A stretch of 64,000 nt of DNA, taken from NCBI RefSeq assembly GCF_003751225.1, contig NZ_RJKE01000001.1, forward strand, positions 992,001 to 1,056,000, read 5' to 3'. Numbering within the stretch: position 1 is the stretch's first letter; each line of letters begins with the position of its first letter. The stretch comes from Actinocorallia herbida. GTDB taxonomy: Bacteria > Actinomycetota > Actinomycetes > Streptosporangiales > Streptosporangiaceae. Positions 820-56,365 of this stretch are shown here, in pieces. The notes under the pieces are model-generated. The model saw nothing but the letters and a program-made list of their open reading frames with translations. It had not been told where the DNA came from and searched no databases. A program made the position numbers and the translations under genes.

Positions 820-833
820 CAAGCAAGCGCTTG
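820..833. promoter_or_regulatory. KstR2-like operator upstream of LLM gene
   Basis: CAAGCAAGCGCTTG is a 5+5 inverted repeat with a 4-bp spacer and also contains the shorter perfect palindrome CAAGCGCTTG (824-833). It lies 74 bp upstream of the GTG at 746. The published mycobacterial KstR2 site is AnCAAGnnCTTGnT, which the inner palindrome fits at the core. Confidence 0.6.
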
Positions 834-892
834 GGCGATTACTTCCCCCGATGTGACCCGCCGCACACTCGCCGCGGGCCCCGGAACGCACC

Positions 893-923
893 GGACCCCC
901 GCCCCGAAGCGGGGCGGGGGTCC
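893..923 (-). terminator. Hairpin terminator after Ig-repeat protein gene
   Basis: A perfect 13-bp stem (GGACCCCCGCCCC and its complement) closes a 5-base GAAGC loop, 18 bp past the stop at 941 on the minus strand. There is no clear U-tract, as is usual in high-GC actinobacteria. Confidence 0.7.
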
Positions 924-940
924 TCAGGAGCCGGAGCGCG

Positions 941-1999
941 CTAGGGCGCCGCGGCGGCGGGGGTGACGGTGAACGTCTGGGCGTCCACGACGAGCTTGCC
1001 CTTGTAGGTCGCGCTGATGGTGAACGTCAGCGGACCGGTCAGGTTCTTGAAACCGAAGTAGAACTTCACGTTCGGCTGGCCGGCCGGGATGGTGACGGTC
1101 TGCTGCGCGCCCTGGGCGAGGCCGAAGACCACGTCGTCCTTCTTGTCCGAGGTGACGATGACGTCCGCGCCGCCCGCCGGAGCCGGGCCGGTGAGCACGA
1201 CGTCGGCCTCGACCCCGTCCGCGTCCGCGGTGAAGTTCGGGTCCGCGTGCACGACGATGTCGTACAGCTCGGGGGCCTCGGCCGCGCCGGGCGTCAGGGT
1301 GAGGTTGCGGCTGAGGGTGGCGCCACCGTAGGACGCGCTGACCTTCACCGTCTGCTGGGCGGCGACCTTCTGGGTCGTCACCTGGAAGACCGCGGTCCGC
1401 TCACCGGCGAGCACCTTCACCGACGCGGGCACCTCGGCGCGGAAGTTCGAGGTCTCCAGCAGCACGCCCGCGCCGCCCTTCGGCGCTGCGGCGTTCAGCG
1501 TGACCGTGCCGGTCAGCGCGGTGCCGCCGTTGACGTTCTGCTGGCTGAGCGCGATGCCCTTCAGGAAGTGCTTCGGGGTCAGCTTGAGCTTCTTGGTGAT
1601 CTTCTTGCCGTTGAGCGCGGCGGTGACGGCCACCGTGCGCTTCTTGGCGGTGGCCGTCGTCTTGACGGTGAACTTCGCCGTCTTCTGGCCGGCCTTCACC
1701 TTGACGGTGGCCGGGACCTTGACGAACTTCGTGTTCTTCGAGGTCAGCGTCACCTTCACGCCGCCCGCGGGGGCCGCGGTGGTGAGCTTGACCGTGCCGG
1801 TGGTCTTCTTGCCGCCGGCCAGCGGGTTCGCGGCGAACGTGACCGCGGCGGGCTTGGGCTTGGCCGCGCGCAGGTGCACGGCCTCGGCGACGGCGTCAAG
1901 GGAGCCGCCGCCCGCCGCGGCGACCGCCGTGCCGCCCGAGACGACGAGCGCTACGGCGACCGCACCGCCGATGAGCACTCTCTTGAGCTGACGGGACAT
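941..1999 (-). CDS. Secreted protein with tandem Ig-like repeats
   Basis: The 352-residue protein begins MSRQLKRVLIGGAVAVALVVSGG, a typical Sec signal peptide ending near an AVAAA cleavage region. The start is set at 1999 because GGAGG lies 8 bases upstream; an in-frame ATG at 2038 lacks one. The mature part holds three Ig-like beta repeats of 80-95 residues, at about residues 55-140, 145-230 and 240-345. Each begins with a GG(T/A)xxTGTVxL-type strand followed by AP(A/K)GG, and ends with a TAxFxVTT strand. The first repeat is very rich in Lys and Thr. There is no sortase motif and no enzymatic domain. A cell-surface or extracellular structural role is inferred from the architecture only. It is monocistronic, with a strong terminator at 893-923. 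Confidence 0.75.
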   Translation of the reverse strand: MSRQLKRVLIGGAVAVALVVSGGTAVAAAGGGSLDAVAEAVHLRAAKPKPAAVTFAANPLAGGKKTTGTVKLTTAAPAGGVKVTLTSKNTKFVKVPATVKVKAGQKTAKFTVKTTATAKKRTVAVTAALNGKKITKKLKLTPKHFLKGIALSQQNVNGGTALTGTVTLNAAAPKGGAGVLLETSNFRAEVPASVKVLAGERTAVFQVTTQKVAAQQTVKVSASYGGATLSRNLTLTPGAAEAPELYDIVVHADPNFTADADGVEADVVLTGPAPAGGADVIVTSDKKDDVVFGLAQGAQQTVTIPAGQPNVKFYFGFKNLTGPLTFTISATYKGKLVVDAQTFTVTPAAAAP

Positions 2000-2147
2000 T
2001 CCGACCGCCTCCATGATCTTCACTAGCGAACAGGGCATCTTTCCGCTTGCACGCGACCCCTGTCCAGGCGATCGGGTGAATGAAAGATAACGACCTGTCC
2101 GTCTAAGCGGCGATCCGGCGGCTTCTGTTACGGCTCGGGGGGAGCTG

Positions 2148-2969
2148 TCAGGTCTTGTCGGCTTTCGCCGCTCTGCGCTCGCGGCGGGTGAGCTGGGCGA
2201 GCCAGGTGCGGAGGACGTGCAGGAACTCCGCCGGGCGTTCCTCGTGCAGGCGGTGGCCGTTGCCGGGAAAGACGTGGGTCTCGGCGCCGAGGGCGTCGCG
2301 CTCCCAGGCCGCGCGCTCGGGGTCGGCCCACAGGGAGAGGACCGGCTGGGTGCGGCCCGCGAGGTAGGCCGCGGACTGGGGCCGGACGCCGAACTGGCCG
2401 TCCGCGACGAACAGCGCGGCGAAGACCTCGGCGAGGACGTGGGGGGCGGTGCCGAGCAGTTTGCGCTCGTGCCAGGCCTTGATCGACGGGGGCGACGCGG
2501 GAGTGTAGAGGGTCGAGTCCATGGCGAGCGCGGTCTCGTGGGCGTTCGTGCGCAGGCCGTCGGCGTAGCCGGACATGAAGGCCGCGATGTCCTCGCGCAG
2601 GCCGTACCCGGGGTCGACGGCGACCACGCCGCGCACCAGCTCCGGATGCTCGACCGCGAGGACGCTCACCACCTGGCCGCCGAGCGAGTGCCCGACGGCG
2701 ACGACGCGCGCGACCCCTAGGCGGCCGAGCAGCGCGGCGAGGTCCTCGGCCATCTCCCTGGGCACGTTGCCCTTGTCCGGGACCGAGCTGTAGCCGTGCC
2801 CGCGCAGGTCGGGCGCGATGACGCGGAAGTCTCCGGCGAGGTCGGGCAGGTGCCACACCCAGTCGTGGGAGTCGGCGCCCATGCCGTGCACGAGCAGCAG
2901 GACGTCGGCGTCGCGCGGGCCGTCGTCGGTGTAGAAGAGGCGGACGTCGCGGACTTCGGCGAACGGCAT
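2148..2969 (-). CDS. Alpha/beta-fold hydrolase
   Basis: This 273-residue protein is a standard alpha/beta hydrolase. The oxyanion-hole strand is LLLVHGMGADSHDW near residue 25, the nucleophile elbow is VGHSLGG near residue 92, a mobile lid follows residue 130, and the catalytic His is in PGNGHRLHEERP near residue 238. The acid is probably the Asp of SLWADPERAAW. The family includes esterases, C-C bond hydrolases and epoxide hydrolases; the sequence does not choose among them. It is divergent from the LLM gene starting at 3014, and both face the perfect operator at 2986-2999. It is therefore probably co-regulated with the CoA and steroid genes of the window. The ATG at 2969 starts exactly before the first conserved strand. 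Confidence 0.85.
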   Translation of the reverse strand: MPFAEVRDVRLFYTDDGPRDADVLLLVHGMGADSHDWVWHLPDLAGDFRVIAPDLRGHGYSSVPDKGNVPREMAEDLAALLGRLGVARVVAVGHSLGGQVVSVLAVEHPELVRGVVAVDPGYGLREDIAAFMSGYADGLRTNAHETALAMDSTLYTPASPPSIKAWHERKLLGTAPHVLAEVFAALFVADGQFGVRPQSAAYLAGRTQPVLSLWADPERAAWERDALGAETHVFPGNGHRLHEERPAEFLHVLRTWLAQLTRRERRAAKADKT

Positions 2970-2985: not shown

Positions 2986-2999
2986 CAAGCAATTGCTTG
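2986..2999. promoter_or_regulatory. KstR2-like operator in divergent promoter
   Basis: CAAGCAATTGCTTG is a perfect 14-bp palindrome lying 17 bp from the ATG of the hydrolase gene and 15 bp from the ATG of the LLM gene. Its position between two divergent starts supports an operator role. It lacks the 10-bp CAAGNNCTTG spacing and so represents the longer version of the motif. Confidence 0.65.
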
Positions 3000-3013
3000 G
3001 TAGGGTAGCGGAT

Positions 3014-3892
3014 ATGCGCCTCGGCATCACGATGTTCGCCACCGATCAGACCATGCCGCCCCACGAGCTGGCCATCGCCGTCGAAGAACGCGGCTTCTCT
3101 TCCCTGTACCTCCCCGAGCACACCCACATCCCGACGTCCCGGCTCACCCCTTCGGCGGCCACCTTGGCGACGTCCGGGGTCGGCGCCTCCGGGTTCCTCC
3201 GGGGCACCTCCGGGGACGAGACCCTGTCGGAGTCGTACGCGCGGACCCTCGACCCGTTCGTCTCCCTGGCGATGGCCGCGTCCGTCACGTCGACGCTGAC
3301 GCTCGGCACGGGGGTCGCGCTCCTCGCGCAGCGGGAGCCGATCGGGACCGCCAAGGCGGTGGCCACCCTTCAACACCTGTCCGGGGGCAGGTTCGTGCTG
3401 GGCGCCGGCTACGGGTGGAACGTCGAGGAGGCCGCCGACCACGGCGTCGTCTGGCACGAGCGGCGCGCGCTCGTCGGCGAGCGGATCGCGGCGATGCGCG
3501 CGCTGTGGCGCGACGAGGTGGCCGCCTACAAGGGCGCGCACGTGGCGCTCAGCCCGAGCTGGGCCTGGCCCAAGGCCGACGTGCCCGTGCTGCTCGGCGG
3601 GGGCGGCGGCCCGAAGCTGTTCGCCGCGATCGCCGCGCACGGCGACGGCTGGCTGCCGATCGGCGGCGCCGGGATCGCCGAGGCGCTGCCAAGGCTCGCC
3701 GCGGCCTACGAGGCGGCCGGGCGCGACCCGGAGACGGCGGTCGTCATCCCGTTCGGATCGCTGCCGACCCCGGGCAAGCTCGCCCGCTTCGCCGAACTCG
3801 GCATCCGGGAGACCGTCCTGCGGGTGACGTCGGGCACGCGCGACGCGGTGCTGCGCGAACTCGACGCCCACACCGGCTTCCTGGCCTCCTGA
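3014..3892 (+). CDS. LLM-class F420/FMN-dependent oxidoreductase
   Basis: The 292-residue protein begins MRLGITMFATDQTMPPHELA. It carries the LLM barrel motifs SLYLPEHTHIP near residue 32, LTLGTGVALLAQREPI near residue 97 and LSGGRFVLGAGYGWNVEEA near residue 120, and it keeps the typical GGGGGPKLF turn that contacts the cofactor phosphate. This pattern matches the F420-dependent LLM subgroup common in mycobacteria. The frame opens at 2981, but that start would lie inside the operator, so the ATG at 3014 is preferred. The leader is very short and may be absent. It is convergent with the thioesterase gene, only 10 bp apart. The substrate is unknown. Confidence 0.85.
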   Translation: MRLGITMFATDQTMPPHELAIAVEERGFSSLYLPEHTHIPTSRLTPSAATLATSGVGASGFLRGTSGDETLSESYARTLDPFVSLAMAASVTSTLTLGTGVALLAQREPIGTAKAVATLQHLSGGRFVLGAGYGWNVEEAADHGVVWHERRALVGERIAAMRALWRDEVAAYKGAHVALSPSWAWPKADVPVLLGGGGGPKLFAAIAAHGDGWLPIGGAGIAEALPRLAAAYEAAGRDPETAVVIPFGSLPTPGKLARFAELGIRETVLRVTSGTRDAVLRELDAHTGFLAS

Positions 3893-4651: not shown

Positions 4652-5395
4652 TCAGCCCAGGTACGCGGCCCGCACCGCGGGATCGTCGCGCACCTCGGCC
4701 GGCGCGCCCTCGGCGATGACCTTGCCCAGGTCGAGCACCACGATCCGCTCGCAGGTGTCCATCACGAACCCGACGTCGTGCTCGACCAGCAGCACCGTCG
4801 CCTCCACCGAGGCCAGCACCCCGGCGAAGACCTCGGCCTGCGCCGGGTCGAGGCCGGACGTCGGCTCGTCGAGCAGCAGGATCTTCGGGTCGTCCGCCAG
4901 CGCGCGGGCCAGCTCCACGAGGCGGCGCCGCCCGATCGGCAGTTCCGCCGCGTACAGCCCGGCGAGGTCGGCGATGCCGCAGCGCGCCAGCGCCTCCTCC
5001 GCCCGCGCCCGCCGCGCCCTCTCCCGGGACCGCCGCGTCGGCAGCGCCAGCAGGTCGGCGGCGAGGCCGCCGCCCCCGCCGTGCCACTCCAGCGCGGTCA
5101 GCACGTTCTCCAGGACCGTCAGCCGCCCGAACACCTGCGGCCGCTGGAACGTCCTGGCCATCCCGTCGCGGGCGCGGCGCACCGCGCCCCGCCCGGTGAC
5201 GTCCGCGCCGTCCACCCTGACCTGCCCGCCATCCGGCCTGCGCAGCCCCGTGACCACGTCGAACAGGGTCGTCTTCCCCGCCCCGTTGGGCCCGATCACC
5301 CCGCAGACCTGCCCTTCGGCCACCGTGAAGGACACTTCGCTGAGCGCATGCACCCCCCCGAAGCTGACACTGATCCCTTCCAGTTCCAGGCTCAT
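4652..5395 (-). CDS. livG: Branched-chain-type ABC transporter ATPase (LivG-like)
   Basis: The 247-residue ATPase has Walker A GPNGAGKT near residue 36, the Q-loop ARTFQRPQVF near residue 88, Walker B ILLLDEPTSGLD near residue 172 and the switch His in LLVEHDVGFVMDTCERIVVLDLGKVIAEG. The ABC signature is degenerate: ELPIGRRRLVELARAL replaces LSGGQ, a substitution known in LivG-type subunits. The start ATG overlaps the stop of the upstream fused permease gene (ATGA), so the two are translationally coupled. It supplies the second ATPase of the importer whose other ATPase is fused to the permeases at 5392-8076. Confidence 0.9.
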   Translation of the reverse strand: MSLELEGISVSFGGVHALSEVSFTVAEGQVCGVIGPNGAGKTTLFDVVTGLRRPDGGQVRVDGADVTGRGAVRRARDGMARTFQRPQVFGRLTVLENVLTALEWHGGGGGLAADLLALPTRRSRERARRARAEEALARCGIADLAGLYAAELPIGRRRLVELARALADDPKILLLDEPTSGLDPAQAEVFAGVLASVEATVLLVEHDVGFVMDTCERIVVLDLGKVIAEGAPAEVRDDPAVRAAYLG

Positions 5396-8076
5396 GAACT
5401 TCCCTCTTCGACCGGACTTCCGGCGGGTCGGATTCCCAGATAGGCGGCGGTCAGTTCGTCGGCGTCGACCTCGGCTCGGGGGCCGCGCCAGGTGATGCGG
5501 CCCTGGCCCATGTAGGCGACGGTGTCGGCGATCTCCAGGGCCTCGTGGGCCTTCTCCTCCACCACGAGCAGGGCGACGCCGCGCTCGCGCAGCTCGCCGA
5601 ACAGATCGAAGACCTGCCGGACGACGAGCGGGGCGAGGCCGAGCGACGGCTCGTCGGCGATGAGCACCTTCGGCGGCCGGACGAGGGCGGGGGCGAGGGC
5701 GAGGATCTGCTGCTCGCCGCCGGACAGCGAGCCCGCGGGCAGGTCCCGGCGTTCGGCGAGCCGGGGGAACCTCTCGTAAGCGGTGGCCCTGTCCGACGCC
5801 GAAGGCAGCCAGAGCGTCAGGTTCTCCTCCACGGTCAGGCCGGGGAAGACGCCTCTGCCCTCGGGAGCCAGGTACATGCCTTCACGTGCGCGTTTGAACG
5901 CCGAGGCGCCGGTGACATCGGCCCCGCCGAGCAGGACCCGCCCGGACGAGGGCGTCACCGCGCCGATGGCGACGGCACAAGCCGTCGACTTGCCTGCGCC
6001 GTTCGCGCCGAGCAGGGCTACGACCTCGCCTCCGCGCACGGACAGGTCGACGCCCCGCAGCACCGTCGTGTCCCCGTACCCGGCGACGATCCCTTCGAGG
6101 ACGAGCGCGCCGTCGTCCGACGGCTCGGCCGCCCCGTCGGCCGGGGTCTCCTCGGCCTGCGCCTCCTCGGCCAGGGCCGCCCGCCGCCTCCGCCGGTACC
6201 GCTGCTCGGCGAACTGCGCGAGGACGCCGTCGGGGTGCTTGGCGAGGATCACGCCGCCGAGGCCGAAGAGGATCGCCTCCACATGGGTGGAATCGGTGAC
6301 GTACGACAGGATCTCGTGCGAGACCCCGACGATGAGCCCGCCGACCACGGCGCCGCCGATCCGCCGGACGCCCTGGAGCACCACCACCGCGAGCCAGAAG
6401 AACCCGAGGTTGACGCGCAGGTCGGTGGCGTAGATCTGGCCCGCGAACGTGGCGAACAGGACCCCGCCGAGGCCGCAGATGCCCGACGCGACCGCGAAGA
6501 GCGTCAGCTTGGTCCGCACCGCCGAGACACCCGAGGTCTGCGCGGCGGTCGGGGCGGAGCGCACCGCGAGGATCGCCCGCCCGGAAGGGGACCGCTCCAG
6601 GTTGCGGATCAGCAGTGCCACCACGCCGATCACCGCGAGCAGGAACACGATCCTGGTCCGCGGATCGCCCGTGTCGGTCGGGCCGAGCACGATCGCCGGG
6701 AACTTCCAGCCGATCGTCCCGTTGCTGAACACGTCGATCTGGAAGAGGACCTGGTCGGCGAGCAGGCCGAGCGCCAGCGTCGCCAGCGCGAGGACCTTCC
6801 CGCCCAGGCGCAGCGCGGGAAGCGCGACGATCAGGCCCGCCGCCACCGCCGCGAGGACGCCCAGCACGGCGGCGAGTCCGAAGGGAAGGCCATGTCCGAG
6901 GACGAGCCCGGCCGTCAGCGCGGCGAGCGCGGCGAACGACGCCTGCGCGAGGTTCACCATCCCGCCGACGCCCGTCACCACGACGAACGAGCAGAAGATG
7001 AGCGAGAACACCAGGCCGGTCGCGATGAGACCGGCCCAGTAGTCGCCCGCGAAGAACAGCACCCACACCAGACCGGCCGTTCCGCCGGCCGCCCACGGCA
7101 GCACCCGCCGCCAGCGCGGCAGGTCCGCGAGGTGGTCGGGCGGGGGCGCGTCCTCGGCGACCGTGCCCGCGACCCGCGACCGCGCGCGGTTCAGCACCAC
7201 GAGGCCGACCAGCAGGAGCAGCGCCGGGACACCCGTCGCCAGGCCCGTCACCTGCTCGGTGAGCGCGCCGCCGTACCCGGCGACGAGGTTCTGCACGACG
7301 CCGAGCGCGAGGCCCGCGGCGAACGTCCAGGGGATCGAGCGCAGCCGGCCGAACACCGACGCGGTCGCCGCGGTGAACATGAGGACGGTGAACGCGCTCT
7401 GGTCGAGGCCGAGCGCGGGGACGGCGAGCACCCCGGCCAGCGCGGCGAGCCCCGACGACAGCATCCACGCCTGGGCGGAGGCGGCGTCGGCGTCGACCCC
7501 GCGCCAGGTCGCCAGCGCGCGCTGGTCGACCGTCGCGCGCATGCGCAGGCCGAGCGGGGTGTGCCGCATGACCAGCCAGAGGCCGGCCGCGGCGAGCGCG
7601 GCGAGCGCGAACACCACGAGCTGGTCGGAGTCCAGCCTGACCCCGTCGAACGGCTCGAAGGAGGTGGGCGGCTGCGGGCCGAGCCCGCGCGCCGAGGCGC
7701 CCTCGGTGACCGACGGCAGCCCGAAGACCTCCACCAGCCACAGGCCGAGCGCGGGCAGCGCGATGAGCAGGCCGATCGTCGCGACGATCGCCTGGGTCTC
7801 CCCGGCGGCGGCGAGGCCGCGGAACATCAGCCGGTGCAGCGTGTAGCCGAGCAGCGGGGCGAACACCCCGACGGTGAGGACGACGGCGGGCCAGGCGGGC
7901 CAGCCCGCGCCGGTGGTGAGCTCGAAGTACAGCAGCGCGGCGACGAAGCCGACCGCGCCGTGGGCGAAGTTGAAGACGCCGGTGGCGGCGTAGGAGAGGG
8001 TCAGGCCGGAACCGAGCAGGGCGAAGATCGCGCCGGTCACGAGTCCGCTGAGCACCAGGCCGAGGAATTCGGTCAA
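5392..8076 (-). CDS. Three-domain fusion: LivH permease + LivM permease + LivF ATPase
   Basis: One uninterrupted 894-residue frame carries three subunits that are normally separate. Residues about 1-290 are a LivH-type permease (GLTLSYAATGVFNFAHGAVG motif, about eight membrane segments). Residues about 320-615 are a LivM-type permease (VVTGVGGMVNLAQASFAALAALTAG). Residues about 660-885 are a LivF-type ATPase with Walker A GANGAGKST, signature LSGGEQQ and Walker B VLIADEPSLGLAP. Linkers near 300 and 630 are charged and Pro/Ala/Glu rich. The start is a TTG at 8076 with GGGAG upstream. With LivG (ATGA overlap) and the lipoprotein at 8132 it forms a complete HAAT-family importer. Operators upstream of the lipoprotein gene place it in the KstR2-like regulon, suggesting import of a steroid-derived or other carboxylate rather than an amino acid. 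Confidence 0.88.
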   Translation of the reverse strand: MTEFLGLVLSGLVTGAIFALLGSGLTLSYAATGVFNFAHGAVGFVAALLYFELTTGAGWPAWPAVVLTVGVFAPLLGYTLHRLMFRGLAAAGETQAIVATIGLLIALPALGLWLVEVFGLPSVTEGASARGLGPQPPTSFEPFDGVRLDSDQLVVFALAALAAAGLWLVMRHTPLGLRMRATVDQRALATWRGVDADAASAQAWMLSSGLAALAGVLAVPALGLDQSAFTVLMFTAATASVFGRLRSIPWTFAAGLALGVVQNLVAGYGGALTEQVTGLATGVPALLLLVGLVVLNRARSRVAGTVAEDAPPPDHLADLPRWRRVLPWAAGGTAGLVWVLFFAGDYWAGLIATGLVFSLIFCSFVVVTGVGGMVNLAQASFAALAALTAGLVLGHGLPFGLAAVLGVLAAVAAGLIVALPALRLGGKVLALATLALGLLADQVLFQIDVFSNGTIGWKFPAIVLGPTDTGDPRTRIVFLLAVIGVVALLIRNLERSPSGRAILAVRSAPTAAQTSGVSAVRTKLTLFAVASGICGLGGVLFATFAGQIYATDLRVNLGFFWLAVVVLQGVRRIGGAVVGGLIVGVSHEILSYVTDSTHVEAILFGLGGVILAKHPDGVLAQFAEQRYRRRRRAALAEEAQAEETPADGAAEPSDDGALVLEGIVAGYGDTTVLRGVDLSVRGGEVVALLGANGAGKSTACAVAIGAVTPSSGRVLLGGADVTGASAFKRAREGMYLAPEGRGVFPGLTVEENLTLWLPSASDRATAYERFPRLAERRDLPAGSLSGGEQQILALAPALVRPPKVLIADEPSLGLAPLVVRQVFDLFGELRERGVALLVVEEKAHEALEIADTVAYMGQGRITWRGPRAEVDADELTAAYLGIRPAGSPVEEGSS

Positions 8077-8094
8077 AACGGCTCCCGAGGGGTC

Positions 8095-8124
8095 GGCGCC
8101 GCCCCGCCGTGGCGGGACGGCGCC
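8095..8124 (-). terminator. Intercistronic hairpin between binding-protein and permease genes
   Basis: Arms GGCGCCGCCCCGCC and GGCGGGACGGCGCC pair over 14 bp with one mismatch. The hairpin sits between the stop of the binding-protein gene (8132) and the TTG start of the permease fusion. Such hairpins usually stabilise the upstream message or partly stop transcription, so the binding protein is made in excess. Confidence 0.6.
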
Positions 8125-8131
8125 GGAGGCA

Positions 8132-9376
8132 CTACTTCAGCGGGGTGTTGGCGGTGCACTTGAGGTGCTGCGCCACCTCGAAGGAGTCCCCGTTCAGCCG
8201 GACGAGCGCGCCGCAGCCATTGGGCTCCTTCTTGTCCTTGGGGTACTCGATCCGCCCGAAACCGGGGTTCTCGTAGGTGAAGGCATCCGCCGCGGCGAGG
8301 AACGACTCACGCGTCAGGTCCTTGCCCGCCTTGGCGGCGATGGCGAGGAACACGTCGGCGGCCCAGTAGCCCACGGCCATGTGCTGGGTGAACTCGACGG
8401 CGCCGCCGCCGGACGCCTTGGTGATGTCCGCCTTCATCTTGACGACCTCGGGCAGATCCGACTCGAACGGCTCGAACTGCGGCGAGGACAGGACGCCGTT
8501 CAGGCCCGCCTTGAGCGCGGGGTCCTTGAGCACGACGGGGTCGTAGCTCGTCGCGTCACTGATCGCGCCCTTGTATCCGGCCTTGCGCAGCGCGCCGAAC
8601 AGCCCCGCGTTGAGCTTGGCGCCGGCCATGATCGACACGACCACGTCGGGCGGGCCGCCCTCGGCGTCCATGATCTTGTTGACGTAGGGCAGCCAGTCCT
8701 GCGGCGGCGCGGTCGCGGGGATGGCCGCCGACGTGCCGGCGATCCCGAATCCGGCCGCGGTGAACGACAGGCCGATGTTGCCGACGCCCGTCTTGGAGGC
8801 GGTGGAGTCGGTGCCCTGGATCCAGGCGGTCTTGCCGTCGGCGCCGCCGAGTTCGGCGGCCACCTGCGAGCCCCACCAGGTCTGGGTGGAGGAGCCGGGG
8901 GAGGGCGCGAGGCAGCCGTTGTAGCCGAACGCCGACTTGAGACCGCACCACTGCGGACCCGTCGCCCAGCCGAACCACGGCACGCCCTGCTGCTCCAGGA
9001 AGCCGCCGCCGCCGAACGACGGCGAGCTGACCGGGACGACCGCGAACACCTCGTCCTTCTGGACGAGCTTCTGCGCCGCGGTGGCGCCCTTGGCCGGGTC
9101 CATCCCGTCGTCTTCTGCCCCGACGAACTCGATCTTGCGCCCGTTCACACCGCCTTCTTCGTTGGCCCGGTCGAACCGGGCCTTGGCGCCGATCTCGGCG
9201 GCGCCGGTGGAGTATCCGGTGGCGCTGGTCTTGGCCAGGATGCCGCCGATCTTGATGGTGGTGTCGGTGACGCCCGCGGCTCCGTCGCCGGAGCCGGTGT
9301 TCTCCGTCGTCGTACAGCCGGTGAGGAGGGTCGCGGTGATGGCCGCGGCGACCGCGGCCCGAGTTTTCATGCGCAT
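8132..9376 (-). CDS. Lipoprotein substrate-binding protein of Liv-type ABC importer
   Basis: The 414-residue protein begins MRMKTRAAVAAAITATLLTGC, a lipoprotein signal with lipobox LTGC, so it is anchored outside the membrane. The mature part is a two-lobed periplasmic-binding-protein type I fold: IKIGGILAKTS near residue 48, NEEGGVNGRKIEFV near residue 77, a central ligand region and a hinge near residue 250. It matches the amide/urea/branched-chain (HAAT) family rather than classical LivJ. The ATG at 9376 has GGGAG upstream. The intergenic space up to 9489 carries two operator copies shared with the divergent alcohol dehydrogenase. It is the first gene of the operon followed by the fused permease/ATPase and LivG. 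The ligand cannot be read from the sequence. Confidence 0.88.
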   Translation of the reverse strand: MRMKTRAAVAAAITATLLTGCTTTENTGSGDGAAGVTDTTIKIGGILAKTSATGYSTGAAEIGAKARFDRANEEGGVNGRKIEFVGAEDDGMDPAKGATAAQKLVQKDEVFAVVPVSSPSFGGGGFLEQQGVPWFGWATGPQWCGLKSAFGYNGCLAPSPGSSTQTWWGSQVAAELGGADGKTAWIQGTDSTASKTGVGNIGLSFTAAGFGIAGTSAAIPATAPPQDWLPYVNKIMDAEGGPPDVVVSIMAGAKLNAGLFGALRKAGYKGAISDATSYDPVVLKDPALKAGLNGVLSSPQFEPFESDLPEVVKMKADITKASGGGAVEFTQHMAVGYWAADVFLAIAAKAGKDLTRESFLAAADAFTYENPGFGRIEYPKDKKEPNGCGALVRLNGDSFEVAQHLKCTANTPLK

Positions 9377-9414
9377 ATGGGGTGGACTCCCGTGCGGAGT
9401 TCGCGCTAACTGAC

Positions 9415-9428
9415 CTAGCGCTCGCTTG
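9415..9428. promoter_or_regulatory. KstR2-like operator, one mismatch
   Basis: CTAGCGCTCGCTTG differs from CAAGC-N4-GCTTG at one base. It lies 39 bp upstream of the binding-protein gene start on the minus strand and is the nearer of two copies in this divergent promoter region. Confidence 0.5.
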
Positions 9429-9457: not shown

Positions 9458-9471
9458 CAAGCAAGTGCTTG
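9458..9471. promoter_or_regulatory. KstR2-like operator upstream of alcohol dehydrogenase
   Basis: CAAGCAAGTGCTTG is a perfect copy of the motif; with flanks, CC...GG extends the arms by one base on each side. It lies 17 bp upstream of the ATG at 9489, where a bound repressor would block transcription. Confidence 0.65.
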
Positions 9472-9488
9472 GTGTTACGGTGCTCGGT

Positions 9489-10589
9489 ATGACGACAATG
9501 CGTGCCGCCGTGCTCCGCGAGTTCGGCGCCCCCCTGGAGATCCTTTCGGTGGACGTGCAGGAGCCGAGGGCCGGCGAGGTCCTGGTGAAGATCGCCGCCT
9601 CCGGCATCTGCGGCTCCGACCTGAAGACCTTGGACGGCAAGAGCCCCGTCGTCAGGAAGCTCCCCGTCATCCCCGGGCATGAGAGCGCGGGCGTCGTCGC
9701 CGCCGTGGGACCCGGCGTGACCGGGGTGAAGGAGGGCGACCACGTCATCGTGGCGATGAACGGGCCGTGCGGACGGTGCCGCAACTGCACCCGCGGCCGG
9801 GTCCACCTGTGCTCGGGCAGGTCCCGGATGGCCGCGATCATGGGCATGATGCCCGACGGCTCCACCCGGCTGTCCCTCGACGGCGAGGCCGTGGCCCCCT
9901 ACATCGGCATCGGCTCGTTCGCCGAGTACGCGGTGGTCGCCGAGCCGATGTGCGTCCGGGTCGCCAAGGACGTGCCGCTCGACCTGCTGTCGCTGACCGC
10001 CTGCGGCGTCGTCACCGGGGTCGGCGCGGTGCTCAACACCGCGAAGGTCGAGCCCGGCGCGTCGGTGCTGGTCGTGGGCGCGGGCGGGGTCGGCCTCAAC
10101 GTCATCCAGGGCGCGGTGCTCGCGGGCGCGACGACCGTCATCGCGGCCGACGTGCTGCCCGGCAAGCTCGAGCTGGCCAAGGAGTTCGGCGCCACCCACA
10201 CGCTGCTGTCGGAGGACCTGCCCAAGCAGGTCGGCGAGATCGTCCGGGGCGGCGTCGACTACGCGTTCGACGTCACCGGCAACCCCGCGGCCCTCACCGC
10301 GGCGTTCGCCGCCACCCAGCCCGGCGGCACCACGGTCATGGTCGGCAGCCCCTCGGCCCCGACCCTCGACATCCCCACCTCCGCGCTCTTCTCCTCCCGC
10401 CGCCTCATGGGCACCCAGGGCGGCGACGCCAACCCCGCGCGCGACCTCCCCCTCCTCGTCGACCTCTACCGCCAGGGCCGCCTCAACCTCGACTCCCTGG
10501 CCACCGAACGCGTCTCCCTCGACGCCGTCAACGACGCCATCACCCGGGTCCGCACCGGCCAGGTGGCCCGCTCCATCATCACCTTCTGA
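9489..10589 (+). CDS. Zinc-dependent alcohol dehydrogenase (MDR family)
   Basis: The 366-residue medium-chain dehydrogenase has catalytic-zinc Cys in SGICGSD near residue 38 and GHESAG near residue 62. The structural-zinc loop GPCGRCRNCTRGRVHLC near residue 92 contains all four Cys. The NAD-binding motif is VVGAGGVGLNVIQGA near residue 195, followed by an acidic residue (AADV), which favours NAD over NADP. Length and the zinc loop are like the class III/FrmA branch. It probably oxidises an alcohol to an aldehyde or ketone in the same catabolic programme as its neighbours, because its promoter holds a perfect operator. ATG 9489 is preferred; ATG 9498 is possible. A hairpin terminator follows. 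Confidence 0.88.
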   Translation: MTTMRAAVLREFGAPLEILSVDVQEPRAGEVLVKIAASGICGSDLKTLDGKSPVVRKLPVIPGHESAGVVAAVGPGVTGVKEGDHVIVAMNGPCGRCRNCTRGRVHLCSGRSRMAAIMGMMPDGSTRLSLDGEAVAPYIGIGSFAEYAVVAEPMCVRVAKDVPLDLLSLTACGVVTGVGAVLNTAKVEPGASVLVVGAGGVGLNVIQGAVLAGATTVIAADVLPGKLELAKEFGATHTLLSEDLPKQVGEIVRGGVDYAFDVTGNPAALTAAFAATQPGGTTVMVGSPSAPTLDIPTSALFSSRRLMGTQGGDANPARDLPLLVDLYRQGRLNLDSLATERVSLDAVNDAITRVRTGQVARSIITF

Positions 10590-13859: not shown

Positions 13860-13872
13860 GCGCGCACTGTAC

Positions 13873-13886
13873 CAAGCGATTGCTTG
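13873..13886. promoter_or_regulatory. KstR2-like operator between SDR and ACAD operon
   Basis: CAAGCGATTGCTTG is a perfect CAAGC-N4-GCTTG site, 13 bp from the SDR ATG and 17 bp from the GTG of the first acyl-CoA dehydrogenase. Flanking GTACC...GGTAC (13869-13873 and 13890-13894) forms an additional outer inverted repeat. Confidence 0.68.
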
Positions 13887-13903: not shown

Positions 13904-15025
13904 GTGGATCTCACCTTCACGCCCGCCCAGGAGGCGCTCCGCGCCGAGGTCAGGGAGTGGCTCGCGGCCAACGTGCCGGCCGAGCCCCTCCCGTCGATGG
14001 ACACCGCAGAGGGGTTCGCGAGGCACCGGGAGTGGGAGCGCTCGCTCGCCGCGGCCCGCCTCAGCGTCCCGACCTGGCCCGCCGAGTACGGCGGGCGCGG
14101 GGCCGGACTCGTCGAATGGCTCATCTGCGAAGAGGAGTACTGGGCCTCCGGCGCCCCCGGCCGGGTCAGCCAGAACGGGATCTTCCTGCTCGCGCCGACC
14201 GTCCTGCACTGGGGCACGCCCGAGCAGAAGGCCCGGTTCCTCCCGAAGATGGCGACGGCCGAGGAGGTCTGGGCCCAGGCCTGGTCCGAGCCGGAGTCCG
14301 GCAGCGACCTCGCGTCCCTGCGCGCCACCGCCACCCCGGACGGCGACGGCTGGCGGCTGAGCGGCCAGAAGACCTGGAGCTCCCGCGCGGTGTTCGCCGA
14401 CTGGGGCTTCGGCCTGTTCCGCTCCGACCCCGCCTCCGAACGCCACCATGGCCTCACCTACTACCTCTTCCCCCTCGACGCCCCGGGCATCACCGTCCGG
14501 CCGATCGCCCAGCTCGACGGGGAGACCGGCTTCGCGGAGATCTTCTTCGACGACGTGTACGTGCCCGCGTCACAGGTGCTCGGCGGCGTCGGCAAGGGGT
14601 GGTCGGTCGCGATGGCCACCACGTCGTCCGAACGCGGTCTCACCTTGCGCAGCCCGGGACGGTTCATGGCCGTCGCGGACAGGCTGCTCGCCCTCGCCGC
14701 GGAGTCGGGCGACCGGACCCTCCAGGACGCCGCGGTCGGCGCCTGGTCCGACGCCGACGCCTACCGCCTGTACACCTGGGCCGCGGTGGCGCGCCTGGAA
14801 GAGGGCATCGAACTCGGGCCCGCCTCGTCCCTGATGAAGACCTTCTGGTCCGAACTCGACCTGAAACTGCACGAACTCGCCCTGGCCCTGCGCGGCCCCG
14901 CCGCCGCCCTCGCCGACCGCTGGATGGACGGGTTCCTGTTCGCCCTCGCCGGCCCGATCTACGCCGGGACGAACGAGATCCAGCGCAACATCATCGCCGA
15001 ACGAGTCCTGGGGCTGCCCCGATGA
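13904..15025 (+). CDS. Acyl-CoA dehydrogenase, large-type subunit (FadE)
   Basis: The 373-residue protein is an acyl-CoA dehydrogenase: VDLTFTPAQEALRAEVREWLA at the N-terminus, the FAD/substrate motif QAWSEPESGSDLASL near residue 127, SGQKTWSS near residue 155, and IYAGTNEIQRNIIAERVLGLPR at the end. In MCAD the base is the Glu of YEGT; here that position is Ala (YAGT), so the base must be elsewhere, as in other FadE types. It is followed with ATGA overlap by a second, shorter ACAD. This is the arrangement of the heterotetrameric (alpha2beta2) steroid-side-chain and ring FadE pairs of mycobacteria. The GTG at 13904 is chosen because upstream codons run into the operator. It is the first gene of a five-gene operon. 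Confidence 0.88.
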   Translation: MDLTFTPAQEALRAEVREWLAANVPAEPLPSMDTAEGFARHREWERSLAAARLSVPTWPAEYGGRGAGLVEWLICEEEYWASGAPGRVSQNGIFLLAPTVLHWGTPEQKARFLPKMATAEEVWAQAWSEPESGSDLASLRATATPDGDGWRLSGQKTWSSRAVFADWGFGLFRSDPASERHHGLTYYLFPLDAPGITVRPIAQLDGETGFAEIFFDDVYVPASQVLGGVGKGWSVAMATTSSERGLTLRSPGRFMAVADRLLALAAESGDRTLQDAAVGAWSDADAYRLYTWAAVARLEEGIELGPASSLMKTFWSELDLKLHELALALRGPAAALADRWMDGFLFALAGPIYAGTNEIQRNIIAERVLGLPR

Positions 15026-19702: not shown

Positions 19703-19717
19703 GGACGGACGGCACCC

Positions 19718-35605: not shown

Positions 35606-35627
35606 GGCATCACGGCATAATGAGGGG

Positions 35628-37598: not shown

Positions 37599-37630
37599 GG
37601 CAGCACGCTAACGCGAAAGTCGTTCAAGGG

Positions 37631-52891: not shown

Positions 52892-53941
52892 CTAGGGCTG
52901 TTCGGGCAGCCTGCCGAGAACGTCCTCGGCCTCCTTCATCACCCGGTCGATGAGCTCCGCGCACGACGGCAGGTCGTCGATGAGCCCGACGACCTGGCCG
53001 GACGCCATGACGCCGAGGTCCGCGCGCCCGTCGACCATCGCCGCCTTGAGCAGCATCGGGGTGTTCGCGGCCATGAGCACCTGCGCCCAGGTCAGCTCCC
53101 GCCCGTGCTTCATCCGCTGTCCCTCGCGGATCATCGCCGCCCACGAGAGCCCGGACAGCCGCTTGAACCGCGCCGCGTTGGCGACCGCGCGGACCAGCCC
53201 GGTGACGGGCCCCGCCGACTCCAGCCGGGCGACGAGATCGGAGCTGAGCACCCGGTGCGGCATTCCGTCGACCCGGGTGGTGACGACCGTGTCGCGCACG
53301 CCCTTGCCGAGGTAGACGTCCTTGACGTCCTGCGCGACGGGCGAGTCGGAGGTGAGCAGGAACCTTGTGCCCATCGCGACCCCGGCCGCGCCGTACGACA
53401 GGGCGGCGATGAGGCCCCGCCCGTCGAAGAAGCCGCCCGCCGCGATGACGGGGATGTCCACCGCGTCGACGACGTCGGGCAGCAGCACGGTGGTGGGGAC
53501 GGGCCCGGTGTGGCCGCCGCCCTCGCCGCCCTGCACGATGACCGCGTCGGCGCCCCACGCGGCGACCTTCTCCGCGTGCCGCCGAGCCCCGATCGAGGGG
53601 ATGACGACGACGCCCGCGTCCTTGAGCGTCCCGATGAGCTTCTGGGAGGGGGCGAGGGCGAAGGAGGCGACCTTCACCCCTTCGGCGATCATCAGCGCGA
53701 CCCGGTCGGCCGCGTCGTCGGCGTCGGAGCGGATGTTCACGCCGAACGGCGCGTCCGTGCGCTCCTTGACCGAGTGGATCGCCTTGGCGGTCTCCTCCAG
53801 CGTCAGGGTGGAGGCGGCGATGATGCCGAGCCCTCCGGCCGCAGAGGTGGCCGCGGCCAAGCGCGCTCCGGCGACGTACCCCATGCCGGTCTGCACGATC
53901 GGGTACCGGATGCCGGTCAGCTCCGTCAGCGCGGTCTTCAT
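52892..53941 (-). CDS. ipdC: IpdC: flavin-dependent oxidoreductase of HIP-CoA pathway (NMO fold)
   Basis: The 349-residue protein has the nitronate-monooxygenase (2-nitropropane dioxygenase) TIM barrel: YPIVQTGMGYVAGARLAAATSAAGGLGIIAAS near residue 13, VIVQGGEGGGHTG near residue 137, VIAAGGFFDGRGLIAALSYGAAGVAMGTRFLLTSDSP near residue 172. IpdC in mycobacteria (Rv3553) is such a protein and performs a redox step on HIP-CoA-derived intermediates. The exact chemistry is not readable here. Its context, directly after ipdB with a 4-bp overlap, then ipdA and echA20, makes the assignment strong. The ATG at 53941 begins the protein immediately after the ipdB stop region. Confidence 0.88.
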   Translation of the reverse strand: MKTALTELTGIRYPIVQTGMGYVAGARLAAATSAAGGLGIIAASTLTLEETAKAIHSVKERTDAPFGVNIRSDADDAADRVALMIAEGVKVASFALAPSQKLIGTLKDAGVVVIPSIGARRHAEKVAAWGADAVIVQGGEGGGHTGPVPTTVLLPDVVDAVDIPVIAAGGFFDGRGLIAALSYGAAGVAMGTRFLLTSDSPVAQDVKDVYLGKGVRDTVVTTRVDGMPHRVLSSDLVARLESAGPVTGLVRAVANAARFKRLSGLSWAAMIREGQRMKHGRELTWAQVLMAANTPMLLKAAMVDGRADLGVMASGQVVGLIDDLPSCAELIDRVMKEAEDVLGRLPEQP

Positions 53942-54678
53942 GCGCGCACCTCCCGCTCCCGGATGCCCTTGGGGTCGAGGACCTCGCGCATGAGGCGGAG
54001 TTCCTCGCCCGTCGGGAGGCGGGTCTCGGGGACCTCGTCGGGGACGGTCAGCGCGAAGCCGGTGGCCGCGACCACGTCGTCGACGGTGACGCCCGGGTGG
54101 ACCGAGCGCAGCCGCAGCGACCCGTCGGGGGCGCGGAAGTCGAGGACCGCGAGGTTGGTGACGACGCCGCGGAGCTGGAACGCGCCCCGGTCGTTCCCGA
54201 CACCGGAGACATAGTCCACCTTGTCCACGAACACCCGGGTGGAGTGGCGCGGCACCCAGAAGCTCGTCGGGTTCAGCCGGGTGTTGCCCGGCGCGCCGCG
54301 CGAGCCCAGGAGCTGGGACTTCGGCCGGTCGGAAGGGCCGATGTGGCTGATGTTGCAGTTGCCGAAGCGGTCCATCTGGGACGGGCCGAGCCACACGTGC
54401 CGCCGCCCGTTCAGCACCAGCCACAGGTGCTCGCGGAACGGCAGCCAGCCTTCGACGTCGCCCGCGGGCGCGCCCAGCGGCACCGGCTCGGCCGTCAGGT
54501 AGGGGCCGCCGTCGGTGGTGAGCAGGCCCGGTTCGAACGTGGCCCGCGCCAGCCGCGCGCCGAGCGCCGGGGTCATGCCGGCCACGGCGGCCGCCACGAT
54601 CTCGCCGTCGCCGCGGAACATGTCGGCGCACGCGGCCGCGCAGACCTCGGCGCGCGTCGCCGTGAGTACCTCGCCCAT
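53938..54678 (-). CDS. ipdB: IpdB: COCHEA-CoA hydrolase beta subunit
   Basis: The 246-residue protein is a CoA-transferase family I beta-type subunit: EVCAAACADMFRGDGEIVAA, FEPGLLTTDGGPYLTAEPV near residue 50, VWLGPSQMDRFGNCNISHIGP near residue 95, and GVTVDDVVAATGFALTVPDEVPETR near residue 197. The CoA-transferase catalytic Glu is not evident; IpdAB is known to be a ring-opening C-C hydrolase rather than a transferase. The family length (about 250) and gene order ipdA-ipdB-ipdC match mycobacteria. It forms a heterotetramer with IpdA. It begins 18 bp after the ipdA stop and overlaps ipdC by 4 bp. Confidence 0.9.
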   Translation of the reverse strand: MGEVLTATRAEVCAAACADMFRGDGEIVAAAVAGMTPALGARLARATFEPGLLTTDGGPYLTAEPVPLGAPAGDVEGWLPFREHLWLVLNGRRHVWLGPSQMDRFGNCNISHIGPSDRPKSQLLGSRGAPGNTRLNPTSFWVPRHSTRVFVDKVDYVSGVGNDRGAFQLRGVVTNLAVLDFRAPDGSLRLRSVHPGVTVDDVVAATGFALTVPDEVPETRLPTGEELRLMREVLDPKGIREREVRA

Positions 54679-54695
54679 CGCCCTCTCCTCTCCGG

Positions 54696-55547
54696 TCACT
54701 GCTCTTCGCGCCAGGCGCGGACGGCGGCCTGGTAGGCGGCCTCGTCGCCGTCGAGGAAGCGGGCGCGGAACGCCGCCCACGACTCCGGCGACCCTGCCGC
54801 CTCGACGTAGTGGCGCTGGAACGCCTCGTCGCGGCGGTCGTCGTCGCCGGTGGTGAAGTGCGACCCGTTCGGGGTCTCCACGACGCCCTCGACCTGCGCC
54901 CGGCTGACCAGGAGCGCCTGGACGGGCCCCTCCTTGAGGAGGTCGGCGGTGTCCACGAGGCGTTCGCAGCTCACGAACGAGCGGTCGGCGGCCTTGGCGT
55001 ACAGGTCGTCGAAGTAGGGGTCGCCGCCGAGGTACAGGGCGTTGCCCCGGGCGTCGGCGCGCTGGAGGTGGACGAAGGAGACGTCCATCTTGAGCGCCGG
55101 GACGGCGATGAGCTCTTCGCCGCCGTAGGGGTCGGCCACGGTCTTGAGCCGAGGGTTCGTCGCCAGTACGTCGGAGCCGAGGCCCGCGGGGGTGGGCAGG
55201 AAGGGCAGTCCGTGCGCGGCCGCGTAGAGGCCGAACATGAACATGCCCTCGTCGTACTCCTCGAACTCGATGGAGCCGTTCTGCCTGGCCTGCCGGAAAT
55301 GCGGCTCCAGCGCGACCGAGTCCAGCGTGACGAAGGGCGCCACCAGTTTGCGGATCTTCCCTGCCGCGCAAAGGAGGCCGACGTCCGCGCCGCCGTAGGA
55401 GACGACCGTAAGGTCGCGCACGGGCGAGTTGCACAGAGCGCGGACCAGGGCCATCGGCTTGCGGCGCGAGCCCCAGCCGCCGATGCCGAGCGTCATCCCG
55501 CTCTCCACCGAGCCGACGATCTCCTCGATCGTCATCTGCCGTCCCAT
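54696..55547 (-). CDS. ipdA: IpdA: COCHEA-CoA hydrolase alpha subunit
   Basis: The 283-residue CoA-transferase-like alpha subunit has GMTLGIGGWGSRRKPMALVRALCNSPVRDLTVVSYGGADVGLLCAAGK near residue 18, YDEGMFMFGLYAAAHGLPFLPTPAGLGSDV near residue 98, and DPYFDDLYAKAADRSFVSCERLV near residue 175. The same phrases are found in Rv3551. With IpdB it opens the last steroid ring of COCHEA-CoA. The ATG at 55547 overlaps the echA20 stop (TGATG); an in-frame ATG four codons later is possible. Expression is expected from the KstR2-like site at 56352 in the divergent promoter. Confidence 0.92.
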   Translation of the reverse strand: MGRQMTIEEIVGSVESGMTLGIGGWGSRRKPMALVRALCNSPVRDLTVVSYGGADVGLLCAAGKIRKLVAPFVTLDSVALEPHFRQARQNGSIEFEEYDEGMFMFGLYAAAHGLPFLPTPAGLGSDVLATNPRLKTVADPYGGEELIAVPALKMDVSFVHLQRADARGNALYLGGDPYFDDLYAKAADRSFVSCERLVDTADLLKEGPVQALLVSRAQVEGVVETPNGSHFTTGDDDRRDEAFQRHYVEAAGSPESWAAFRARFLDGDEAAYQAAVRAWREEQ

Positions 55548-56293
55548 CAGCGCTCCCGGGAGACGAAGGCGTCGCGGTGCTGGTCGCCCGCGCCGGAGAG
55601 GTTCAGTTCGTAGGTGAAGCCCTGCTCGAACCGGTAGGACCGCTTGACGTCCACCGGGTCGATGCCGTTCAGCGACTCCTTGGCCCGCCGGATGACGAAC
55701 GGGTCCTTCTCGGCGATCTGCCCGGCGACCTCCAGCGCGGCCTCGCGCAGCGCCGCGCGCGGCACGACGGTGTGCACCGAGCCGAAGGCGTGCAACTGCT
55801 GGGCTGTCGCGGTGCGGGCCGTGTAGACCATCGCCCGCATGAGGTGCTGCGGCACCAGCCGGGCCAGGTGGGTGGCGGCGCCGAGCGCGCCCTGGTTGAC
55901 CTCGGGCAGGCCGAAGGTGGCGTCGTCGGAGGCGACGATGACGTCGGCGTTGCCGACGAGTCCGATGCCGCCGCCCAGGCAGAAGCCGTGCACCGCGGCG
56001 ATGACCGGCACCTCGCAGTCGTACACCGCGGCGAACGCGGCGTAGCAGCCCCGGTTGGCGCCCAGGAGCGCCTCGAAGCCCTCGGTGCGCTGCATCTCCT
56101 TGATGTCCACGCCCGCGTTGAAGCCGCGGCCTTCGGCGCGCAGGATCACCGCGCGCACCTGCGGGTCCCGCCCTGCCGCGGTGATCGCGTCGGCCAGCTC
56201 GAACCAGCCCTTGACGGTCAGCGCGTTCACCGGCGGCGCGTCCATGACGACCTCGGCCACCCCGGGCGCGGGCGTCGTTTGCGTGATCCCCAT
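55547..56293 (-). CDS. echA20: EchA20: enoyl-CoA-hydratase-fold ring hydrolase
   Basis: The 248-residue crotonase-fold protein begins MGITQTTPAPGVAEVVMDAPPVNAL. It carries AEGRGFNAGVDIKEMQRTEGFEALLGANRGCYAAF near residue 53, VHGFCLGGGIGLVGNADVIVASDDATFGLPEVNQGALGAATHLARLVPQHLMR near residue 100, and FEQGFTYELNLSGAGDQHRDAF at the end. These phrases are diagnostic for EchA20 (Rv3550), which hydrolyses HIEC-CoA to open a ring before IpdAB acts. The ATG at 56293 is selected over 56299 because GAGGG is 6 bases before it. It heads the minus-strand block echA20-ipdA-ipdB-ipdC. Confidence 0.92.
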   Translation of the reverse strand: MGITQTTPAPGVAEVVMDAPPVNALTVKGWFELADAITAAGRDPQVRAVILRAEGRGFNAGVDIKEMQRTEGFEALLGANRGCYAAFAAVYDCEVPVIAAVHGFCLGGGIGLVGNADVIVASDDATFGLPEVNQGALGAATHLARLVPQHLMRAMVYTARTATAQQLHAFGSVHTVVPRAALREAALEVAGQIAEKDPFVIRRAKESLNGIDPVDVKRSYRFEQGFTYELNLSGAGDQHRDAFVSRER

Positions 56294-56351
56294 GCACATC
56301 CCTCTGCGTTCGGCCACCGGCAGGGCGCCGGGGCGGGGCACTCTGTTTTAC

Positions 56352-56365
56352 CTAACGCTTGCTTG
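56352..56365. promoter_or_regulatory. Degenerate KstR2-like site in ipd divergent promoter
   Basis: CTAACGCTTGCTTG matches CAAGC-N4-GCTTG with two mismatches in the left arm. It lies 59 bp from the echA20 ATG and 33 bp before the TTG of the SDR gene. Weakness of this copy in the most KstR2-like block is notable. Confidence 0.45.

Follow-up and report, generated by a model that had tools for sequence, protein, structure and literature searches.

A paralogue of KstR2 has probably taken over a steroid ring C/D regulon, with rewired operators, in Actinocorallia herbida

The stretch analysed here (the window) is 64,000 nucleotides of Actinocorallia herbida (family Streptosporangiaceae in the GTDB sense), positions 992001-1056000 of a single 9.80-Mb contig with a GC content of 72%; the genome of the window is called G000 below, and genes were called with a codon-score script. 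A preliminary description of this stretch had pointed to copies of a palindrome in its promoters and had assigned them to an enlarged regulon of the steroid repressor KstR2. We found that these palindromes are real, intergenic and tightly clustered, and that they are very probably the binding sites of one KstR2-related repressor encoded among them. Comparison with relatives suggests that this repressor, KstR2-B, is a second, sister paralogue of classic KstR2 (KstR2-A). We consider it likely that KstR2-B took over the regulon for catabolism of steroid rings C and D and that the operators were rewired with it.

The palindrome occurs in an N4 form, CAAGC-N4-GCTTG (CAAG-N6-CTTG), and in a 10-bp form, CAAGNNCTTG, which has a CAAG-N2-CTTG core. 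Exact copies of the N4 form stand at six places in the window (820, 2986, 9458, 13873, 35113 and 37631; shuffles lead one to expect 0.04), as do exact copies of the 10-bp form (824, 9462, 34576, 35549, 35596 and 37631; 0.23 expected). Eight of the twelve positions listed in the preliminary description are exact copies, whereas those at 9415, 28822 and 28857 carry one mismatch to the N4 form and that at 56352 carries two. Genome-wide, 8 of 18 N4 places lie in the 69-kb stretch 992820-1062060 (binomial p ~3e-13), and so do 8 of the 50 places of the 10-bp form (p ~3e-9), a frequency that, as had been proposed, is not that of chance.

Next, we scanned with a matrix built solely from seven distinct mycobacterial and rhodococcal KstR2 sites of PMC3068626. 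In 144 kb (952-1096 kb) it gave 14 merged places at a score of at least 12, which bears out the claim that the sites fit the published KstR2 motif; all of them fall between 816 and about 70060 in window numbering. Sixty Markov simulations gave a mean of 0.68 such places and a maximum of 2. The coding share of the scanned stretch is 86%, yet all 14 places are intergenic and none is coding. When the threshold was lowered to 10, 18 places were found, one of them coding and one beyond the 816-70060 span. The four inexact copies at 9415, 28822, 28857 and 56352 were recovered by the published sites alone with scores of 11.5-17.1, that at 28822 (11.5) being slightly under 12. The earlier statement that no copy lies inside a gene holds for the 14 matrix places but not for the 10-bp copy at 34576, which falls within an LLM gene (34009-35067) and is absent among matrix matches of at least 9. 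The site set runs beyond the window, with members at 64661, 64720 and 70043. A chance origin of the palindromes is ruled out by the shuffle counts and the matrix simulations.

The repressor gene and the two sites in its promoter are the following.

35628..36290, plus strand: TetR repressor of KstR2 family clade B (KstR2-B), recognition helix SGSLYHHF
35545..35562: predicted autoregulatory operator 1 (TTAA CAAG CG CTTG CTCA), at -83 from the kstR2-B start, matrix score 20.5
35592..35609: predicted autoregulatory operator 2 (CGAA CAAG CA CTTG GGCA), at -36, matrix score 13.5

KstR2-B is the sole match at 1e-30 in the window genome. Its nearest solved chains in the PDB are 2ibd (3e-53), which we take to be KstR2 of R. 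jostii, 4w1u (6e-49) and 4w97 (8e-49), and the next sequence follows at 4e-25. Residues R184 and W188 of KstR2-B align with Arg162 and Trp166 of KstR2, presumably its HIP-CoA contacts, and are invariant in 12 B sequences. Relatives of KstR2-B were found in Actinomadura, Actinoallomurus, Nonomuraea, Streptosporangium and other named organisms. The two copies reported for the kstR2 promoter were confirmed: both are kept in the same-genus relatives G075 and G016 (loci L022 and L039). Operator 1 is also found at -83 in these two loci and at -82 in L032, and operator 2 in L022 (13.5), L032 (16.0, at -39) and L039 (10.5). Among the 30 kstR2-B loci scanned, L030 and L050 had no match at 8.5, and several had only weak matches or matches elsewhere. 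By the matrix, operators of the type AnCAAGnnCTTGnT lie near the repressor gene and near its targets, several of them without the strict N2 core. In a midpoint-rooted tree, B forms one clade (98/97) that is sister to G293 of another family (98/99) and does not group with classic KstR2; the Mycobacteriales-type A proteins (99/97) and those of the family together with Streptomyces-like genomes (100/97) stand apart from it.

Two further TetR proteins are encoded inside the cluster, at 20589-21191 and 47715-48404, and the first stays beside an amidase gene in five relatives (G075, G016, G173, G048 and G130). Binding of the palindromes by one of these instead is very improbable in our judgement: the sites fit a matrix of published KstR2 sites and flank kstR2-B itself, and operator letters vary with the KstR2 helix, as described below.

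In the mechanism that we propose from sequence, KstR2-B would bind the palindromes, repress its own gene and hold down about 12 promoters, which would serve a steroid ring C/D (HIP-type) catabolic set and an accessory module made up of an importer, a Hyu pair, LLM enzymes, extra ligases and lipid-transfer-type thiolases. Its release from DNA is probably triggered by a CoA thioester like HIP-CoA. The unit read by one dimer is probably CAAG-N6-CTTG, and CAAG-N2-CTTG would represent two such registers overlapping, 4 bp apart. Published sites fit a layout of four CAAG-like half-sites in 4-bp steps, in which the first and third, and the second and fourth, are 10 bp apart, a common half-site distance for one TetR dimer. 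Both forms would be accounted for if one dimer sat on CAAG-N6-CTTG and a second, overlapping one joined it at fuller sites. To look at the N4 form on its own we read 30 of the 46 genomes that match the window's LLM_D gene. The sequence CAAGCGAGCGCTTG stands at most 230 bp upstream of LLM_D in 29 of the 30 loci, and the 30th, an incomplete locus, has it too; none of these sites has a CAAG-N2-CTTG core, indicating that the CAAG-N6-CTTG form is conserved on its own. The idea of separate regulators for the two forms was dropped, as published and window sites share one half-site layout, and it is also countered by the coreless N4 form at LLM_D. The N4 form is already present at ro04652/ro04653 in Table 3 of PMC3068626.

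Searches of the class and the family revealed that several relatives carry two or more KstR2 homologues. The recognition helix reads SGSLYHHF in B and in most other A-type genomes, including the mycobacterial/rhodococcal-type KstR2, G/AGSLYYHF in the A clade of Streptosporangiaceae and f18 genomes, and AGSIYHHF in a third clade, so that the helix S has changed in two separate clades. Outside B, operators with G at base 4 of both half-sites make up 13 of 22 sites that go with an S helix and 0 of 29 that go with a G/A helix, counted after hand removal of four genome stretches counted twice; the sites of related genomes are not independent, and Fisher values are descriptive. We then compared 18 genomes picked for listed matches of both B and a second homologue. 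The second homologue has a clade-A helix in 15 of them, and the other three (G067, G179 and G117) have a third-clade second homologue only. Base 4 was A in 45, C in 14, G in 9 and T in 4 letters of the second homologue's sites, and G in 27, T in 5, A in 3 and C in 1 of those of the B sites (B operators were found in 10 of the 18 genomes). The second homologue's operators had A or C at the fourth half-site base in 17 of the 18. The third-clade homologue at locus L263 of G117 combines an S helix with a CAAG-CA-CTTG site; its sister proteins have the helix AGSIYHHF and CAAA sites.

The proposed takeover can be followed at the SDR-fadA6 operon, for which 17 loci were compared (13 A loci against 3; L289, which has no SDR, is outside this count). 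In the 13 A loci kstR2A lies directly upstream of fadA6, with the SDR gene in front in 12; the operator stands directly before the SDR gene in nine and before a FadE gene in four, and in none of the 13 do both half-sites carry G at base 4. In G000 (at 6.74 Mb; 6742399), G075 and G048, the SDR gene and fadA6 are adjacent without kstR2A, separated by gaps of 26, 15 and 90 bp, respectively, and the promoter before the SDR gene reads CAAG-CA-CTTG in all three. FadA6 of G000 was located by homology across the whole genome, and kstR2-A has no match there at 1e-30. The site before this operon scores 27.1, the highest of 16 places fetched far from the window; fadA6 is a KstR2 target in the available part of PMC3068626. 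We propose that the window lineage lost classic KstR2-A (in relatives, its operators carry A or C at base 4), and that targets formerly under this repressor (SDR-fadA6, EchA20-IpdABC and a FadE pair) would now be under CAAG operators of KstR2-B.

A different route is suggested for EchA20-IpdABC. In a tree of these genes rooted on the Rhodococcus-like G300 and on G373 (the G016 row is without IpdC), those of G000, G048 and G090 form a clade with the genes of the G114 A cluster (100/100), within the A genes of the family, unlike the repressors of the same three genomes, which do not group with A. The operator at 56348, TTAC CTAA CG CTTG CTTG, is identical to the site before SDR4 in G095 and to one in the B locus of G058. 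As this identical operator lies with SDR4 in the B cluster of G095, where EchA20-IpdABC is in the A cluster, relocation of EchA20-IpdABC next to a ready operator is likely. The place 429387-429404 is the only one in G000 within one mismatch of the A-type operator pattern, CTAGCAAGCGTTTGGTTG. A relic of an A-type operator in this genome was considered and set aside, there being this one place, at one mismatch.

Several observations weigh against this account. Support for the deepest split of the repressor tree, which has a midpoint root, is weak (48/49), and the nesting of EchA20-IpdABC hinges on how that gene tree is rooted. The rule used gave no site at 8 of the 18 B loci; the B letters were taken from 10 genomes, in which certain places count twice, once per register. 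The third-clade second repressor of G117 has an S helix and CAAG sites, G being what the helix rule predicts. Across the rewired SDR promoter lies an MR_MLE gene and not a FadE gene, and the far side is not syntenic. In G090 no SDR-fadA6 operon was confirmed, the best FadA6 match being 61-65%. The FadD3-like ligase is 43% identical to its G300 counterpart and under the NCBIfam cut-off. Finally, 11 of the 16 distal places (the full set of 10 distal exact N4 copies and 6 distal 10-bp places picked by their central letters) reached a matrix score of at least 16, some of them before genes without an evident steroid link; therefore the motif may be common to several TetR proteins, or the regulon may extend further.

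A separate question is what the regulon serves. The reading of the repressor as a classic KstR2 answering cholesterol was not supported. In a comparison of 15 genomes, KshA_C matches reached only 103 and 99 bits in G000 but about 300 in G016, G300 and G373, and the other 11 genomes likewise had no match near 300 bits. For HsaC (TIGR03213) the best G000 protein reached 295 bits (cut-off 366), and only G016, G300 and G373 passed. G000 therefore seems to be without central enzymes of steroid ring A/B breakdown, neither KshA nor HsaC being matched as strongly as in steroid degraders; KstD, HsaA, HsaD and KstR were not searched. The KshA-like G000 proteins were rejected as true KshA: G016 has proteins of 95-100 bits beside its 300-bit ones, and the G000 protein tested matches solved KshA at 8e-40 at best. 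Among 200 genomes of the family (B at 60% identity or more, KshA at 240 bits or more; G018, at 56%, is outside the cut), 126 had B and 52 had KshA; both occurred in 31, B only in 95, KshA only in 21 and neither in 53, so that presence of B is independent of KshA (p 0.62). The window organism thus appears, as far as tested, not to be a cholesterol degrader. In G253 (f18, locus L258), a KstR2-A cluster with EchA20-IpdABC is found in a genome without a KshA match, so that clade B is not alone in having ring C/D genes without KshA.

These results bear on an alternative in which the repressor is classic KstR2 and its enlarged regulon serves cholesterol catabolism. It would be consistent with the nearest solved relatives being KstR2, with the helix shared with mycobacterial/rhodococcal-type KstR2 and with EchA20-IpdABC, FadE30-like and FadA6 genes under the sites, and expanded site sets are predicted in Nocardioides simplex (29 operons, in the available text of PMC7807495). 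We nevertheless regard it as unlikely, given the separate B clade, the second KstR2 homologue in the 18 relatives compared, the absence from G000 of KshA at 240 bits or more and of HsaC at the cut-off, and the independence of B and KshA.

Scavenging of HIP-like acids would be plausible, because published work reports that 55 of 57 Streptomyces genomes are without the pathway (PMC4810484), describes growth of a streptomycete on HIP (PMC5380842) and raises cross-feeding on steroid intermediates as a possibility (PMC8399759). A fuller scenario, which we rate at about even chances, is that two KstR2 paralogues in Streptosporangiaceae are insulated by coupled changes of the helix residue (S to G/A) and of operator base 4 (G to A/C). 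The classic paralogue would have been deleted in the window lineage, and the other would have captured its ring C/D regulon via base-4 changes and one relocation beside an operator already in place; the regulon would thereby have been freed from sterol ring A/B catabolism, with the importer and an LLM/Hyu module added to scavenge HIP-like acids shed by other microbes.

The remaining predicted operators of the window and their target genes are listed below.

820..837: predicted operator before the LLM_A operon, matrix score 20.2; kept in G075
minus strand, starting at about 746: LLM_A operon, predicted target
2148..2969, minus strand: alpha/beta hydrolase (Pfam), predicted target
2986..3003: predicted operator between the alpha/beta hydrolase (minus) and LLM_B (plus), matrix score 26.8; kept in G075 and G090
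3014..3892, plus strand: LLM_B, an F420-type LLM (TIGR03619), predicted target
4652..9376, minus strand: Liv-type importer (Pfam), with substrate-binding protein 8132-9376, permease/ATPase fusion 5392-8076 and ATPase 4652-5395
9411..9428: predicted operator in the divergent promoter of the importer and a zinc-dependent alcohol dehydrogenase (Zn-ADH), one mismatch to the N4 form, matrix score 12.7
9458..9475: predicted operator in the same divergent promoter, matrix score 22.8; kept before Zn-ADH in G075 and G090
9498..10589, plus strand: Zn-ADH, predicted target
13869..13886: predicted operator between SDR1 (minus) and the FadE1-FadE2-HyuA-HyuB-LLM_C operon (plus), matrix score 24.0; also in FadE1 promoters of relatives
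13904..20578, plus strand: FadE1, FadE2, HyuA, HyuB and LLM_C operon (Pfam, blastp)
23538..28622, minus strand: SDR2, ATP-grasp CoA ligase, FadD-A, glyoxalase-like protein and OB_ChsH2_C protein (Pfam)
28818..28874: two predicted operators, one mismatch each to the N4 form, matrix scores 11.5 and 14.5, in the same place in G075, G090, G048 and G173; flanked by the OB-fold/glyoxalase/FadD-A/ATP-grasp ligase/SDR2 run (minus) and by isochorismatase-like and SDR3 genes (plus)
32467..35067, minus strand: LLM_D and FadD-B
35109..35126: predicted operator before LLM_D-FadD-B, CAAGCGAGCGCTTG on the minus strand, matrix score 21.0
36370-37536, minus strand: lipid-transfer-type thiolase
37627..37644: predicted operator before this thiolase, matrix score 18.6; before the thiolase also in G090, G173 and G048
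52892..56341, minus strand: EchA20, IpdA, IpdB and IpdC homologues, the steroid ring C/D opening set (Pfam, blastp, tree)
56348..56365: predicted operator between EchA20-IpdABC (minus) and SDR4-SDR5 (plus), two mismatches to the N4 form, matrix score 17.1
56398..58116, plus strand: SDR4 and SDR5, 51% and 73% identical to the SDR pair in the same place of G300
62971..63999, minus strand: FadE3, extending beyond the window; operators at 64661 and 64720

Predicted sites thus precede the ring C/D genes EchA20-IpdABC, FadE3, the FadD3-like operon and SDR-fadA6. IpdA matches solved IpdA (6co6) at 3e-93, and FadE3 shares 63% identity with the acyl-CoA dehydrogenase that occupies the FadE30 place in G300. 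FadE1 is likewise 63% identical to an acyl-CoA dehydrogenase near a fadD3-like gene of that genome (blastp), and the nearest model for HyuA is caprolactamase alpha, below its cut-off. Beyond the window, predicted operators separate flavin reductase-FadE3 from a thiolase/OB-fold pair, and an LLM/FadD run is also preceded by one.

Conservation was examined in 400 kb from six relatives (G075, G016, G090, G173, G048 and G130). Operators precede the same genes in G075, G090, G173 and G048, with clusters rearranged or inverted in other genera; G016 and G130 carry only parts of the cluster. In G090 they stand before LLM_B/hydrolase, Zn-ADH, FadE1-Hyu, the ligase runs, LLM_D and the thiolase, and further before EchA20-IpdABC, FadE3/thiolase and a FadD-LLM operon. 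All sites found in the six relatives are intergenic, one of them (14.0, G173 17459) in a stretch without called genes. Elsewhere, one site lies inside a called gene, at L251 1625. Of 30 FadE1-like loci, 20 have a site of at least 10.8, two of these with A-type letters (L170 and L174), and 10 have none, one of the ten (L173) being an incomplete locus. An expanded KstR2-like regulon is well supported, because matrix sites are clustered and operators are kept before the same genes in other genera. The preliminary description had also placed a Liv-type importer, a Hyu pair, ligases and LLM enzymes in the same response; Hyu, LLM, ligase and Zn-ADH genes keep operators in relatives, whereas the importer and its operator were seen together only in the same-genus G075.

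This distribution leaves room for a version in which the core is right, the accessory operons are bystanders or respond to a second pathway, and only one side is controlled at divergent promoters. One-sided control at the kstR2 promoter is a precedent in the available part of PMC3068626, among relatives the importer was seen with its operator only in G075, and a sugar-import/GH1 operon on the opposite side of the 37627..37644 operator is an unlikely target. We consider this version improbable as a whole, for the LLM_D-FadD-B operator was present in the 29 loci and in the 30th, and sites precede the FadE1-Hyu operon in other genera. The permease/ATPase fusion at 5392-8076 joins Liv-type permease and ATPase domains in one 894-aa protein; its G075 counterpart was called at 912 aa. 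A DDE transposase gene (10914-11549) separates the importer/ADH block from the FadE-Hyu block.

Operator, repressor family and target class are known. The Mycobacterium/Rhodococcus KstR2 regulon (Kendall et al. 2010; PMC3068626, as far as its available part goes) resembles the present one in the TetR protein, its recognition helix, the self-controlled promoter and the operator matrix, and the ring C/D genes EchA20-IpdABC, FadE30-like and FadA6 are common to both. It differs in that here the repressor belongs to a separate clade, several more operons are predicted and KshA and HsaC do not reach the level of degraders. KstR2-A of Streptosporangiaceae and Streptomyces-like genomes is of the same family, with overlapping targets and the same operator layout, but has the helix G/A-GSLYYHF and operators in which at least one half-site carries A or C as its fourth base. 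In Nocardioides simplex, the available text of PMC7807495 likewise predicts many KstR2 operons, with duplicated ipdAB, but there phytosterol elicits a response and ring A/B genes are present; that text nowhere uses the words luciferase, LLM, hydantoinase or branched-chain. As far as the literature searched goes, three points are new: clade B, which has an enlarged regulon of its own; the coupling between a helix residue and an operator base, which change together; and the proposed takeover by KstR2-B in the window genome's lineage. Among the open-licence full texts listed, none was found on the B clade, on helix/operator insulation or on the takeover, and none paired KstR2 with Actinomadura.

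The system offers a natural case, open to direct test, in which one paralogous repressor would have replaced another in control of a regulon; living relatives show the promoters of both stages, and a helix position and an operator base are named as test points. Having a KstR2-type regulon is separated here from degrading cholesterol, which matters for genome annotation. If the scavenging is true, it points to a division of labour in soil steroid breakdown.

Some of the distal places lie in settings of their own. A site of 20.4 (L008 4146; G000 6368146) stands before an MlaE permease gene that heads a same-direction run, opposite fdhD. One of 25.8 (L013 3881; G000 7127881) lies between a PhyH-like dioxygenase and an LLM gene, and one of 22.8 (L018 3927; G000 8962927) between a P450 and a GH64 gene; these two may belong to the regulon as well or be bound by other TetR proteins. 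Two more sites of the CAAGCGAGCGCTTG type, both scoring 23.8, stand before a lumazine-binding (riboflavin-synthase-like) gene (L006 3910) and between a CaiB-type CoA transferase and an SPFH gene (L007 4177), and they share the same 14 bp with the LLM_D operator.

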